A stretch of 64,000 nt of DNA from Bacillota bacterium. GTDB lineage: Bacteria; Bacillota; Sulfobacillia; JAJZYS01; JAJZLH01. The notes beneath the pieces were generated by a model. That model was not told the DNA's origin and ran no database searches. It worked only from the letters and a program-made list of their open reading frames with translations. A program made the position numbers and the translations under genes. Positions 4,806 through 9,336 of the stretch are shown here, piece after piece. The stretch spans positions 147,879 through 211,878 of the forward strand of contig JAJZLY010000008.1 of assembly GCA_021850485.1 (NCBI GenBank), in the 5' to 3' direction. The stretch's first letter is position 1. Each line of letters begins with the position of its first letter.

Positions 4806-5657
4806 CTAGCGCGCCGTGTCGAAGAGAGATCGCAGCGCCCACGACAAGTTCAACCACTGCGCCGTCGCGTGATACTCGTCGGCGTGCGTCCGCCGCTCGA
4901 GCTCGAGGCTCGGGTAGTGGCGCCGCTCCAACCGGCTGACCATCAGTGCGACATCGGCCACCATGTCGATCGTATCCGCTTCCGTCTCGGCGTAGGCCGC
5001 GGCCCGCTTCTCCTCCGGCAGCCACTTGGCAGCGTGGAGATCGCCCGCCGGATTTTCCATCGCGCCAATCCCGATGAAAACCCGAGCAGGTAGGTCGTCG
5101 TGCGCCGCGGCGTACGCGGCTTCGGTTTCCAAAATGGCGCGATCTCCCCACCAGTAGGACGGGCTGCCGATGCCGTAGCGGCCAAACACCTGCGGCCGAG
5201 TCAACAGGGCCCAGGTCGCAAACAGGCCCCCGAGCGAGTTGCCGAATAGGGTGTAGTCGGCGGCCGCGACCCGATAGCGCTCAGCCAGGTGCGGCTTGAG
5301 CTCGTCAGCCAGGAAGGCGAGGAACGCCGGCGCCCCACCGCCTCCCTCCTCGCCTGGCACCGGTGTGAGATCGCGCCTCCGCCTCTCGATCGTCTCGCCG
5401 AAATACTTGGCCCGATAGCCGATTCCGACGACCAGCAGAGGTGGAACCTGCTCCAGTCGGTAGAGGCGGGCCATCTCCACCGCAGCGCCATACTGCAGCT
5501 GAGCATCCGTAACTACTAGGACGTGTTGCGGCGGCAGTGGATCGTCCGGCGCCGTACGCGCCACGAAGAGTTTGAACTCGTCGCCGACTTGCTTCGAGGC
5601 GAGGTAACTCACCTCGACATCGGCGACGACGCTGGTGTCATCGGTAGGACCGGCCAT
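4806..5657 (-). CDS. Putative esterase, esterase D / ferri-enterobactin-esterase-like alpha/beta hydrolase
   Basis: This 283-residue alpha/beta hydrolase of the PF00756 type has the nucleophile elbow GNSLGG with S141. It also shows the family pattern of an early VLVV strand, LLVVGIGYRAK before the elbow, SPSYWWGDRAIL after it, and a late HADEYHATA segment likely to hold the catalytic His. There is no signal peptide, so it is cytosolic. I use ATG 5657, preceded by GGGAGGGATG; a longer frame to 5771 lacks a site. The family cleaves esters of siderophores or S-formylglutathione. No siderophore genes are nearby, so the substrate is open. Confidence 0.8.
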   Translation of the reverse strand: MAGPTDDTSVVADVEVSYLASKQVGDEFKLFVARTAPDDPLPPQHVLVVTDAQLQYGAAVEMARLYRLEQVPPLLVVGIGYRAKYFGETIERRRRDLTPVPGEEGGGGAPAFLAFLADELKPHLAERYRVAAADYTLFGNSLGGLFATWALLTRPQVFGRYGIGSPSYWWGDRAILETEAAYAAAHDDLPARVFIGIGAMENPAGDLHAAKWLPEEKRAAAYAETEADTIDMVADVALMVSRLERRHYPSLELERRTHADEYHATAQWLNLSWALRSLFDTAR

Positions 5658-6034
5658 CAGACATCCCTCCCGAAAAACTCGCACGGACTCTCCCGGGCAC
5701 GGCAAGATCGCCACTACACCGGCCGTCTGGGCAGGCCCCGAAACTGCCTGTCTGAGGGCAAATGCTCGCACAAATTCGACTCACGGACCGCTCCGGCCTG
5801 TGCAGCTGCCCACTGCCAATGACGAATCACGGCCGAACACTCGTCGGTTTCAACGTCAGGCCACACCTGCAAGCTTGGTTGCAGGTCTAGCCCGTGGCGG
5901 CATCTTCACGGGCGCCTAGCCTAGCCATGGATTTGTGGCAACAGCCAACACCGCCAAGCCAGTCCCGGCCACATTCAAAACGGTGGTAAGATATGGAGTC
6001 ATCACAACGCCAGCACTGTCGAAGGAGATGTCCG
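5658..6034. other. Intergenic region, 377 bp, divergent promoters
   Basis: This region separates the divergent esterase and glyoxalase genes. It has one clear element, an 8-bp inverted repeat at 5865-5886. Near 5985 the sequence AAGATATGG could hold a weak -10 for the glyoxalase gene. I see no credible gene in it. Confidence 0.5.
5865..5886. repeat. 8-bp inverted repeat, operator or hairpin
   Basis: ACCTGCAA, a 6-nt loop, then TTGCAGGT: perfectly complementary arms midway between two divergent genes. With no T-run on either side it is a better operator candidate than terminator. Confidence 0.4.
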
Positions 6035-6406
6035 ATGCGGCTTTTGCACACACGCCTGCGGGTGGCTGATCTGGACCGATCGATCGCCTTTTACGGCCTA
6101 CTCGGCATGACGGTCAGGGGGCGTTCGCAGTCGCCGCGCGGAAACCAACTGGTCTTCTTGCAAGCTCCGGAGGGCGGCTCAGAGATCGAGTTGTGCCGTA
6201 TCCCGGACGGCCTGCCATTCGCTTTGCCCGAAGACCTGGTGCACATCGCCTTTCAGTCGCTTGACCTGAAGGCTGACCTCAGCCGCCTCAGCGCCCTCAA
6301 CGTCAAGGTGACAGAGCCATACACGCCAACCGGGCACGGTGCGTTGGCCTTCATCGAAGACCCGGACGGATATGAGGTGGAGTTGCTGGAGACAGACCAC
6401 CGGTGA
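6035..6406 (+). CDS. gloA: Glyoxalase I-like (lactoylglutathione lyase family) protein
   Basis: This is a 123-residue single vicinal-oxygen-chelate protein. All four metal ligands of glyoxalase I are in place: H5 (MRLLH), E52 (EIEL), H70 (LVHIAF) and E116 (YEVELLE). The motif RVADLDRSIAFYGLLGM is typical of GloA, which isomerises the thiol hemiacetal of methylglyoxal. In a Gram-positive the thiol could be bacillithiol or mycothiol rather than glutathione. ATG 6035 follows AAGGAG; an upstream in-frame ATG at 5993 has no site. The stop overlaps the next gene's GTG by 4 bp, so a glyoxalase I-like and a metallo-hydrolase protein are co-translated. Confidence 0.8.
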   Translation: MRLLHTRLRVADLDRSIAFYGLLGMTVRGRSQSPRGNQLVFLQAPEGGSEIELCRIPDGLPFALPEDLVHIAFQSLDLKADLSRLSALNVKVTEPYTPTGHGALAFIEDPDGYEVELLETDHR

Positions 6407-7170
6407 GCCGGTTCGAGGATGAGCCGGGCGACATCTTAAAAAAAGTGCGTTTTGGCCGCTCGCTCACAGTCGCTCAGGCGGCCAAACTGGGCGGCCTGAC
6501 CGCGGACACGCTGGAGCGCCTGGAATCGTTGCAGCTGGCGTTTGACCCCAGCCACCTGGCCTTGGCCGAGGGGCTGGGTCTCAACGGTGAAGCCCTGCTG
6601 ATGCTGGCCGCAGACGAGGGCTTGGACGTCGTCTTGCCCACCGATGTGGCTGCCATCCGATCGCCGTGGAGTTCTTGGACCTATGTCTGGTTCGGTCCGG
6701 CCGGGGCGGTGGTGATCGACCCGGCAGTACCCTATCGGGCCCTGGAGCGGCACCTGGGTGGCAACCCGCTGGCCGCCGTCTTCGTCACGCACAGTCATCA
6801 GGATCACCTGGCCACCTACGAGATGGTCGCCCCGCACGCTGCCGCCTGCTATGCCCATCCCGACCTGGCGGCCACGCTCGGCGCCAGTCCGCTGGCCCCT
6901 GGCGAGCAGGCAGCCGGGCTGCGCGCCCTGGCTGCGCCCGGTCATGCCGAAGACGGCTTGGTCCTTTATGGTGACGACTTGGCCTTTACCGGCGATGCAC
7001 TGTTCGCCCGTTCTGCCGGCCGGGCCAGAACGGCCGCCGACTTTCGCGATGTGCTGGAGAGTGTGCGCCGGATCTTGGCCCTGCCGCCCGCTACTGTCTT
7101 GTTGCCGGGTCACGGGCCACCGACCACAGTGGCGCTGGAGCGGCGGCTGAACGCGTTTTACCTGATCTGA
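6403..7170 (+). CDS. XRE-type HTH fused to metallo-beta-lactamase-fold hydrolase (glyoxalase II-like)
   Basis: In this 255-residue protein, residues about 8-65 look like a Cro/CI-type helix-turn-helix (LTVAQAAKLGGLTADTLERL). Residues about 80-255 are a metallo-beta-lactamase fold. The metal motif is H130-S-H132-Q-D134-H135, followed by H181 (APGHAED), D198 (GDALF) and H237 (LPGHGP), so a complete dinuclear site is predicted. The GTG start overlaps the glyoxalase I-like stop (GTGA). Known glyoxalase II enzymes hydrolyse the thioester product of glyoxalase I, and the pairing supports that role. The HTH suggests the enzyme also binds DNA and might act as a substrate-sensing regulator, which is inference. 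Confidence 0.8.
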   Translation: MSRFEDEPGDILKKVRFGRSLTVAQAAKLGGLTADTLERLESLQLAFDPSHLALAEGLGLNGEALLMLAADEGLDVVLPTDVAAIRSPWSSWTYVWFGPAGAVVIDPAVPYRALERHLGGNPLAAVFVTHSHQDHLATYEMVAPHAAACYAHPDLAATLGASPLAPGEQAAGLRALAAPGHAEDGLVLYGDDLAFTGDALFARSAGRARTAADFRDVLESVRRILALPPATVLLPGHGPPTTVALERRLNAFYLI

Positions 7171-7191: not shown

Positions 7192-8358
7192 GTGGCAGCC
7201 GAGACCAAAGACTACTTTCGCACCCATCTGCCTACCTATCTGCAGCGGCTGGAAACCATCGTCAACATGGATTCCGGGACCGCCGATCCGGATGATGTGG
7301 CTGCCGTGTCGGCGCACTTTTCCGGTTGGATGGAACAACTTTCTGGCACGGTCGAAGTCTTGCGCCCCAATTCGGCCTACGGCCCCTTCTTGATCGGCCG
7401 CTGGCAGGGACATGGTCAGGGCCGGGTGCTACTGGTCGGGCACCTGGACACGGTCTACAGCCGAGGTGAGGCCGCAAGGCGTCCGTTCACGGTGTCGGGA
7501 GGCAGGGCCACCGGCTGCGGCGTGATCGATATGAAATCCGGCTGCCTGCTGGCGCTCACGGCCATCCAGGCAATGCGGGATCTGGGGCGTGAGTTTGGCG
7601 AACTGGTGTTGGCCCTGACGCCGGATGAGGAAGTCGGCTCTCCTGTCTCCCAGCCGCTGCTGGCCCAGCTGGCGCTTGATCAAGACGCCATCTTGGTCCT
7701 GGAGCCGGGACGCTCTGGCGGCGGCGTGGTGGTCGGGCGCAAGGGCGTTGCCGACTACACCATCCGGGCCTTCGGCCACGCCTCTCACGCCGGAGTGGCC
7801 CCGCAAGAGGGCCACAGTGCCGTGCTGGAGTTGTGCCACCAGGCACTCGCCCTGTCCGCCCTAAACGGCCAAGAAGACGGCCTGCAGTTCAACGTCGGCG
7901 TATTCTCGGGCGGCAGCCGGCCAAACGTCGTTCCGGGCGAGGCCCAGATGGTAGTGGATGTGCGTGCGGCGTCTGACGCTGCCGTCAAGCGGGCGGGCCA
8001 GCTCTTCTCCAGCCTGCGCGCCAAAACCCCGGGTGTGCGGCTAGAGGTCGAGGGCGGTTTTGCGATGCCGCCGATGGAAACCACAGATCAGATCCGCGCC
8101 CTGTTCGCTCTGGCCCAGCGCCAGGCGCTGGCTATCGGCGAGCAGTTGACTGCCGTCTCCACCGGCGGTGGCTCAGATGCCAACCATCTGGCAGTGTCCG
8201 GGAAGCCCGTTTTGGACGGCCTGGGACCGGTCGGCGGCGGTGCCCACAGCCCCGAGGAGTTCATGGAAGTGGACTCCGTGGTGACCCGTGGCGCCATCTT
8301 GACGGCGCTGCTCAGTCAAATCGGCGCCCATGGCCGGGCGGCCTTTGCCACCGCCTAA
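7192..8358 (+). CDS. M20-family metallopeptidase (glutamate carboxypeptidase / ArgE-DapE-like)
   Basis: This 388-residue zinc hydrolase cleaves an acyl-amino acid or C-terminal glutamate bond. Motifs in order are GHLDTV (H84, D86), bridging D113 in GVIDMKSG, catalytic E146 and ligand E147 in TPDEEVGS, VLEPGRSGG, the dimerisation domain starting at IRAFGHASHAGVAP, and the last ligand in GGGAHSPEE. GTG 7192 follows AAGGAGG. It lies 21 bp after the HTH-hydrolase gene on the same strand and may share its transcript. There is no signal peptide. Carboxypeptidase G2-like proteins are the nearest match by pattern; the natural substrate is unknown. Confidence 0.85.
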   Translation: MAAETKDYFRTHLPTYLQRLETIVNMDSGTADPDDVAAVSAHFSGWMEQLSGTVEVLRPNSAYGPFLIGRWQGHGQGRVLLVGHLDTVYSRGEAARRPFTVSGGRATGCGVIDMKSGCLLALTAIQAMRDLGREFGELVLALTPDEEVGSPVSQPLLAQLALDQDAILVLEPGRSGGGVVVGRKGVADYTIRAFGHASHAGVAPQEGHSAVLELCHQALALSALNGQEDGLQFNVGVFSGGSRPNVVPGEAQMVVDVRAASDAAVKRAGQLFSSLRAKTPGVRLEVEGGFAMPPMETTDQIRALFALAQRQALAIGEQLTAVSTGGGSDANHLAVSGKPVLDGLGPVGGGAHSPEEFMEVDSVVTRGAILTALLSQIGAHGRAAFATA

Positions 8359-8517: not shown

Positions 8518-9336
8518 ATGATCGCCGAGTTCTTGATCTTCTTGCGCGAGGGTCTTGAGGGCTCGATGATCATTTCTATTTTGCTGGCATCGCTGCGCCA
8601 GATCGGGCAGCCAGAGCGGGTGCGCGAGGTTTGGTGGGGCGTGACGGCGGCACTCGTCGTCGCCTTGGGCGGCGGCGTCTTGGCCTATCAGGCACTCCAT
8701 GCCTACAGCGGCACGCCCCTACAGACAGCGTTGGAAGGATCCACCTACCTGGTGGCGGCAGCCGCCCTCACCTATATGACCTTTTGGATGCGCCAGGAGA
8801 GCACGCACCTGCGCGGCGACCTCAGTGCCCAGACCAGCCGGGCAGTCGCCAGCCACAGCCGCTGGGCGATCACCAGTTTGGCTTTCGTCACCGTCGCCAG
8901 GGAGGGACTGGAGACCGTGGTGTTCAGCCTCGCCATCGCCCTGGCGGCGCAGGCCTGGCAGGTGATGGTGGGTGCGGTGATCGGCCTGGTGGTCGCGTTA
9001 ATGATCAGCCGGGCGATCTATCGCATGGGCCTGAGGGTCAACCTGGGCCGCTTTTTCGCGGTGATGGGCAGTCTTTTGATGGTGACCGGCGCCGGACTGC
9101 TGGCTGACGCCATCGAAGACTATCAGCAGCTGGGTTGGCTGCCCGGAGCCCACGCTGGACTGTGGAGCACCAGTCAGTGGCTGCCGGAGCAGAGTTTTTG
9201 GGGCGACCTAGCGCACACCTTTGTCGGCTACGCCGCCACCCCCACCTTCTTGCAACTAGCTGTGTGGGCAGTCTATCTGGCGATTGTCCTGTCCTTCTGG
9301 CTAAGCCGGCGGCCGCGGCTGGTCGGCCCGGCCTGA
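8518..9336 (+). CDS. FTR1/EfeU-family high-affinity iron permease
   Basis: This is a 272-residue integral membrane protein with about seven hydrophobic helices. It has the two REGLE motifs of the OFeT family, one at residues 10-14 and the second near residue 130 (AREGLETVVF). These glutamates bind iron in the yeast Ftr1 and E. coli EfeU transporters. ATG 8518 follows AGGAGGG. No EfeO, EfeB or ferroxidase gene is adjacent, so it stands alone behind its own strong promoter. The family imports Fe3+ after oxidation of Fe2+. In an acidic, iron-rich habitat iron supply is less limiting, so direction and regulation deserve care. Confidence 0.88.
   Translation: MIAEFLIFLREGLEGSMIISILLASLRQIGQPERVREVWWGVTAALVVALGGGVLAYQALHAYSGTPLQTALEGSTYLVAAAALTYMTFWMRQESTHLRGDLSAQTSRAVASHSRWAITSLAFVTVAREGLETVVFSLAIALAAQAWQVMVGAVIGLVVALMISRAIYRMGLRVNLGRFFAVMGSLLMVTGAGLLADAIEDYQQLGWLPGAHAGLWSTSQWLPEQSFWGDLAHTFVGYAATPTFLQLAVWAVYLAIVLSFWLSRRPRLVGPA

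Follow-up and report, generated by a model that had tools for sequence, protein, structure and literature searches.

The locus analyzed here raises the question of what a fold best known from DNA-binding proteins is doing at the N-terminus of a metabolic hydrolase. In the window—the whole stretch of 64,000 nucleotides under analysis, from a genome of 1.6 Mb and 97% completeness—a gene for a glyoxalase I-like protein of the VOC type runs into one for a glyoxalase II-like metallo-beta-lactamase (MBL) that begins with a Cro/CI-type domain; and a preliminary description had proposed that the hydrolase could both act on the product of its neighbor and bind DNA, as a trigger enzyme sensing reactive aldehydes. 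We favor, as reasonably probable, the interpretation that the two genes specify a glyoxalase I/II-like detoxification pair joined by translational coupling, its hydrolase bearing a Cro/CI fold repurposed for something other than DNA binding. The coding features concerned are the following:

6035..6406, plus strand: VOC (glyoxalase I-like) gene, 123 amino acids, with an ATG start preceded by GGAG
6403..6406, plus strand: four-base overlap, GTGA, of the VOC stop with the hydrolase start
6403..7170, plus strand: gene for the Cro/CI-fold plus MBL (glyoxalase II-like) fusion, 255 amino acids, with a GTG start
6403..6621, plus strand: N-terminal five-helix Cro/CI-type domain of the fusion (residues 1-73), acidic, with E5, D6, D10, K14, R16, G18, and E41 invariant in the family
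6643..7167, plus strand: MBL domain of the fusion (residues about 81-255), with ligands H130, H132, D134, H135, H181, D198, and H237
7192..8358, plus strand: M20 peptidase gene, 21 bases 3' of the fusion gene

The four-base overlap of the two reading frames noted earlier is indeed present, and both available congeners (loci L033 and L034) have the same hydrolase GTG start with the same overlap, while in the sister family f4 the overlap at most of the VOC/hydrolase junctions is of one or four bases; from which recurrence we infer that the translation of the two genes may be coupled. Neither reading frame is a product of chance, since the orthologues are 85, 77, and 37-44% identical. An alternative in-frame start at 5993 would give a longer VOC reading frame, which choice is the less likely because the orthologues begin with MRLLH or MRILH and because GGAG precedes position 6035. 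Both congeners also retain the M20 peptidase gene, which is probably co-transcribed with the pair. On the 3' side of the peptidase gene lies a gene for an FTR1/EfeU-type iron permease (8518-9336, plus strand), likewise found in both congeners.

The glyoxalase I-like label given to the VOC protein proved to be well founded. The protein matches the Pfam Glyoxalase family with an E value of 2.1e-17, lactoylglutathione lyases are the closest of its relatives with solved structures, and a profile built on 12 VOC relatives recovered six sequences of glyoxalase I, none of them weaker than 2e-20. The four metal ligands H5, E52, H70, and E116 (His/Glu/His/Glu, the GloA type) are all there and are invariant in the 12 aligned VOC proteins. 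In length and in that four-ligand set the protein thus resembles the E. coli-type glyoxalase I (GloA), from which it differs in remaining below the cut-off of the curated GloA model, at 55.2 versus 165 bits.

The hydrolase, for its part, matches Lactamase_B (E 6.9e-13) and contains the THxHxDH motif plus a further His, Asp, and His, so that the assertion that all its metal ligands are present holds for seven out of seven; and the ligands of both enzymes show no variation among the aligned orthologues. The best MBL matches by sequence and by fold include the glyoxalase II or glyoxalase II-like hydrolases TTHA1623, S. aureus GloB, YcbL, and E. coli GloB, the closest solved structure being TTHA1623 (2zwr), with a fold match of Z 15.5 and an rmsd of 3.3 over 148 residues. 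S. aureus GloB, which is structurally close to TTHA1623 and YcbL, hydrolyzes S-lactoylglutathione (PMC8318587). With that type of enzyme the hydrolase shares the MBL fold, the metal ligands, and the absence of the C-terminal helical glutathione-binding domain of GloB/HAGH, since the protein stops after the MBL core; whereas it differs in possessing the N-terminal Cro/CI domain and in an identity of about 24-30%. Those matches, together with the ligands, uphold the glyoxalase II-like label, although the nearest NCBIfam model, GSH_gloB, is not reached (48.7 versus a cut-off of 200.8 bits). Because both proteins fall under the curated GloA/GloB cut-offs, we keep the names at glyoxalase I-like and glyoxalase II-like.

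Ligands, relatives, and linkage are best read as those of a putative glyoxalase I/II-like pair: the VOC enzyme would isomerize the hemithioacetal that a small thiol forms with an alpha-ketoaldehyde (methylglyoxal, for instance), and the thioester so produced would be hydrolyzed by the MBL enzyme. That linkage was followed through the genomes of the phylum, to which the survey was confined. In the 154 genomes of the class that were searched, full-length fusions turned up in only two families of the window's order—in 3 of 3 genomes of family f1 and 10 of 10 of family f4, amounting to 14 genes in 13 genomes, with an additional N-terminal fragment in genome G010—while the remaining genomes of the class gave MBL matches alone, lacking the N-terminal domain. 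A VOC gene lies directly upstream of the fusion in all 14 cases, even though the fusions of the two families are only about 37-44% identical to each other. Four more fusions came from a 398-genome sample of the phylum, in which a second search with a full-length profile revealed no additional carriers, and eight from 73 genomes of the class to which genome G472 belongs (one of these, L111, being cut by a contig end, and two reading with an in-frame stop).

Outside the order a VOC neighbor accompanies only one of the 12 fusions, namely L073 in genome G164, where it is situated 8-17 bases upstream. In five loci of families f102/f185 (L074, L075, L107, L109, and L110) the fusion is followed by an uncharacterized gene that has no significant Pfam match and whose complete copies encode 470-484 amino acids; and in three of families f170/f181 (L072, L104, and L108) by an AstE/AspA-like gene, supported in two of them by a weak match to PF24827. 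Within family f4, the pair in L008, L009, and L010 is followed by a GNAT protein of 281-286 amino acids in place of the M20 peptidase of the window's genus. The candidacy of this GNAT neighbor as a mycothiol synthase was rejected, its MshD score being far under the cut-off.

Since a VOC neighbor is missing from all but one of the 12 fusions found beyond the order, the substrate of the hydrolase may not be a glyoxalase product; and one may conceive of a hydrolase outside the glyoxalase pathway, acting on some other thioester or ester beside a VOC protein with another VOC activity, so that the pairing would reflect merely a shared operon. The other neighbors just described, the shortfall of both proteins from the curated cut-offs, and the functional breadth of the MBL and VOC families would agree with such an arrangement. 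We nevertheless hold it to be rather unlikely in view of the GloA-type four-ligand set, the predominance of glyoxalase I among the best PDB matches of the VOC protein and of glyoxalase II among those of the MBL domain, and the strict VOC linkage in two families with fusions so divergent.

Taken as a whole, the survey results indicate that the fusion architecture is real, old, rare in the phylum, and linked strictly to VOC proteins in one order and occasionally elsewhere; that homologues with this domain occur beside VOC genes, on which the preliminary description had depended, is accordingly seen in the 14 cases of the order and again at L073. The fusion tree allows a single origin for the VOC-linked fusions, although its deep forks are weak. 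A mobile origin of the fusion was considered and rejected: in plasmid tblastn searches the L009 query was matched nowhere in its N-terminal domain and the L073 query obtained only partial coverage at 25-28% identity, while viral contigs yielded MBL matches alone, none with that domain. MBL proteins of the Verrucomicrobiota may carry comparable N-terminal domains. Literature searches on the HTH-MBL fusion returned nothing relevant.

As to the thiol that the proposed pair would employ, BshC was found in none of the 13 genomes of the order that carry the fusion, its only occurrences there being in G003 and G004 (L098 and L099), the two genomes without the fusion; GCS2 is absent from the entire order. 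The anticorrelation between BshC and the fusion is, however, only a lead, because the independent points are few. In the class of G472, moreover, BshC is almost wholly missing with or without the fusion, no match exceeding the cut-off.

We come now to the N-terminal domain itself. In the window's hydrolase alone the HTH match is weak (HTH_31, E 0.032); but HTH_3 is matched by 9 of 12 orthologues, at 4.3e-7 in the best case, and searching the PDB with a profile of the domain retrieved the 434 repressor, Cro, and other Cro/CI proteins, so that the description of the N-terminus as Cro/CI-type stands. The full-length model, itself weak in this domain, places helices at residues 9-16, 23-30, 34-41, 49-57, and 62-72. 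For the isolated domain, AlphaFold gave a low-confidence model (pLDDT about 57), with a best Foldseek E of 0.41 and top rows consisting almost entirely of Cro/CI proteins, along with one cyanase structure. The invariant R16 and E41 are separated by 25 residues, as are R10 and E35, which form a buried salt bridge in the 434 repressor (PDB 2r63). That pair argues that the fold has been kept while the binding face has not: with the 434 repressor and Cro-type HTH proteins the domain has in common the five-helix pattern, the hydrophobic core positions, and the R16-E41 spacing, whereas it departs from them in being acidic or neutral, in having lost most of the DNA-contact residues, and in being fused to an enzyme.

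The chemistry of that face speaks against DNA binding. In 24 fusions the net charge of the HTH domain ranges from -7.2 to -0.05 (pI 4.4-6.9), whereas six other HTH_3 (Cro/CI) domains of the same genome have +2.8 to +5.8 (pI 9.6-11.4), and of 12 further comparators from the phylum nine are basic, one is neutral, and two are acidic, both of the latter being the middle repeats of triple-HTH proteins. The medians, -3.2 for the fusions versus +3.8 for the 18 Cro/CI comparators, differ with a Mann-Whitney p of 1e-5, uncorrected for relatedness. The position of 434 Q17 is occupied by Gln in 2 of 24 fusions versus 7 of 14 comparators, that of Q28 mostly by Pro or Ala, that of Q29 mostly by Ala or Leu, and that of Q33 by Ala in 12 of 24; the contact positions of the recognition helix are chiefly Ala, Pro, or Leu, and the recognition helix plus loop averages a net charge of -1.3 in the fusions versus +0.6 in the comparators. 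The main counterargument at the residue level is the Arg found at the position of 434 S30 in 12 of the 24 fusions. What the family has instead kept invariant, the motif E-D-x3-D-x3-K-x-R-x-G with E5, D6, D10, K14, R16, and G18, is located in the N-terminal extension and the first helix, off the recognition helix. This case for a loss of DNA binding is circumstantial rather than a proof, because few sequences were compared and relatedness keeps them from being independent of one another; but judged from the sequences, DNA binding by the fusion is unlikely, and the suggestion that the protein could bind DNA is not supported, none of the 24 domains being basic.

The region upstream of the VOC gene, where a conserved operator might be looked for, contains these features:

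4806-5771, minus strand: esterase-family gene (PF00756), adjoining the inverted repeat
5865..5886, no strand assigned: perfect inverted repeat of 8 + 8 bases with a 6-base spacer, ACCTGCAA-6-TTGCAGGT
5978..5992, plus strand: stretch AAACGGTGGTAAGAT, common to the window and to the upstream region of one congener (L033)

The repeat that had been put forward as a conserved upstream element is real and exact, but its conservation did not survive comparison, for it is absent upstream of the VOC gene in both congeneric loci, and we therefore rejected it as a conserved operator. Within the genome it exists as a single exact copy, sites with up to 3 mismatches numbering 13 versus 7 for a reversed control. 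The esterase gene was likewise not found at the corresponding place in the congeners, which joint absence is a local insertion or loss, and the repeat probably belongs to the esterase segment and not to the VOC-hydrolase operon. At L033 the region upstream of the VOC gene borders on a different gene, and only the short stretch at 5978-5992 is shared with the window; that stretch resembles an extended -10 element by eye, whereas the promoter scan made no call there and found no sigma-70-like promoter upstream of the VOC gene.

These observations bear directly on the trigger-enzyme proposal, according to which the Cro/CI domain would bind DNA and control its own or other genes, that binding being altered by a substrate or product at the MBL site. 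The recognizable fold in most of the members, the retained active-site ligands, the palindrome in the window, and the Arg present in half of the family speak for such a protein; yet domains that are acidic or neutral throughout, in a genome whose other Cro/CI domains are basic, with degenerate and variable contact positions and a single-copy palindrome missing from both congeners, render the proposal quite improbable. Nothing in the sequence analysis pointed to aldehyde sensing by the fusion.

The domain could, alternatively, influence transcription or translation indirectly, its contact being with RNA polymerase, the ribosome, or a regulator, much as MBF1 acts or as PqsE does together with RhlR. 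The N-termini of two relatives match the archaeal MBF1 model TIGR00270 weakly (E 7.9e-5 and 3.4e-3), the fold matches of the hydrolase include PqsE, an MBL thioesterase with a solved structure of its RhlR complex, and the fold alone does not explain the invariant charged motif. Since those MBF1 matches lie far under the family cut-off, the window's own protein has none, and no partner gene is linked, we regard an indirect action of this kind as improbable, albeit slightly less so than direct DNA binding.

Returning to the repurposed fold, we consider it most likely that the Cro/CI domain was exapted for a structural or partner-binding role: no longer binding DNA, it would more likely serve oligomerization, the gating of the active site or of a cofactor, or the docking of a partner. 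The N-terminal domain of cyanase likewise has a Cro/CI-like fold with a role other than direct DNA binding. MBF1/EDF1 offers a second parallel, being of Cro/CI-like fold without a direct DNA-binding role, and there the lack of 434-type contacts has been given the same interpretation, in agreement with experiments showing no direct DNA binding (PMC3062615). Neither is homologous to the fusion over its full length, cyanase being a different enzyme and MBF1 a coactivator or ribosome factor.

That an aldehyde-derived thioester at the hydrolase site changes the engagement of the Cro/CI domain with DNA, RNA polymerase, or the ribosome seems to us doubtful; if true, such an arrangement would constitute a direct control of carbonyl stress by the detoxifying enzyme itself. 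What the locus does present is a Cro/CI fold that became fixed onto a metabolic hydrolase in Bacillota genomes that are few but widely spread and that, in one order, is coupled strictly to a glyoxalase I-like protein in genomes where neither bacillithiol synthesis (BshC) nor GCS2-type glutathione synthesis was detected. The family thus raises two testable questions: what an enzyme gains from an HTH that apparently does not bind DNA, and with which thiol these bacteria counter reactive aldehydes.
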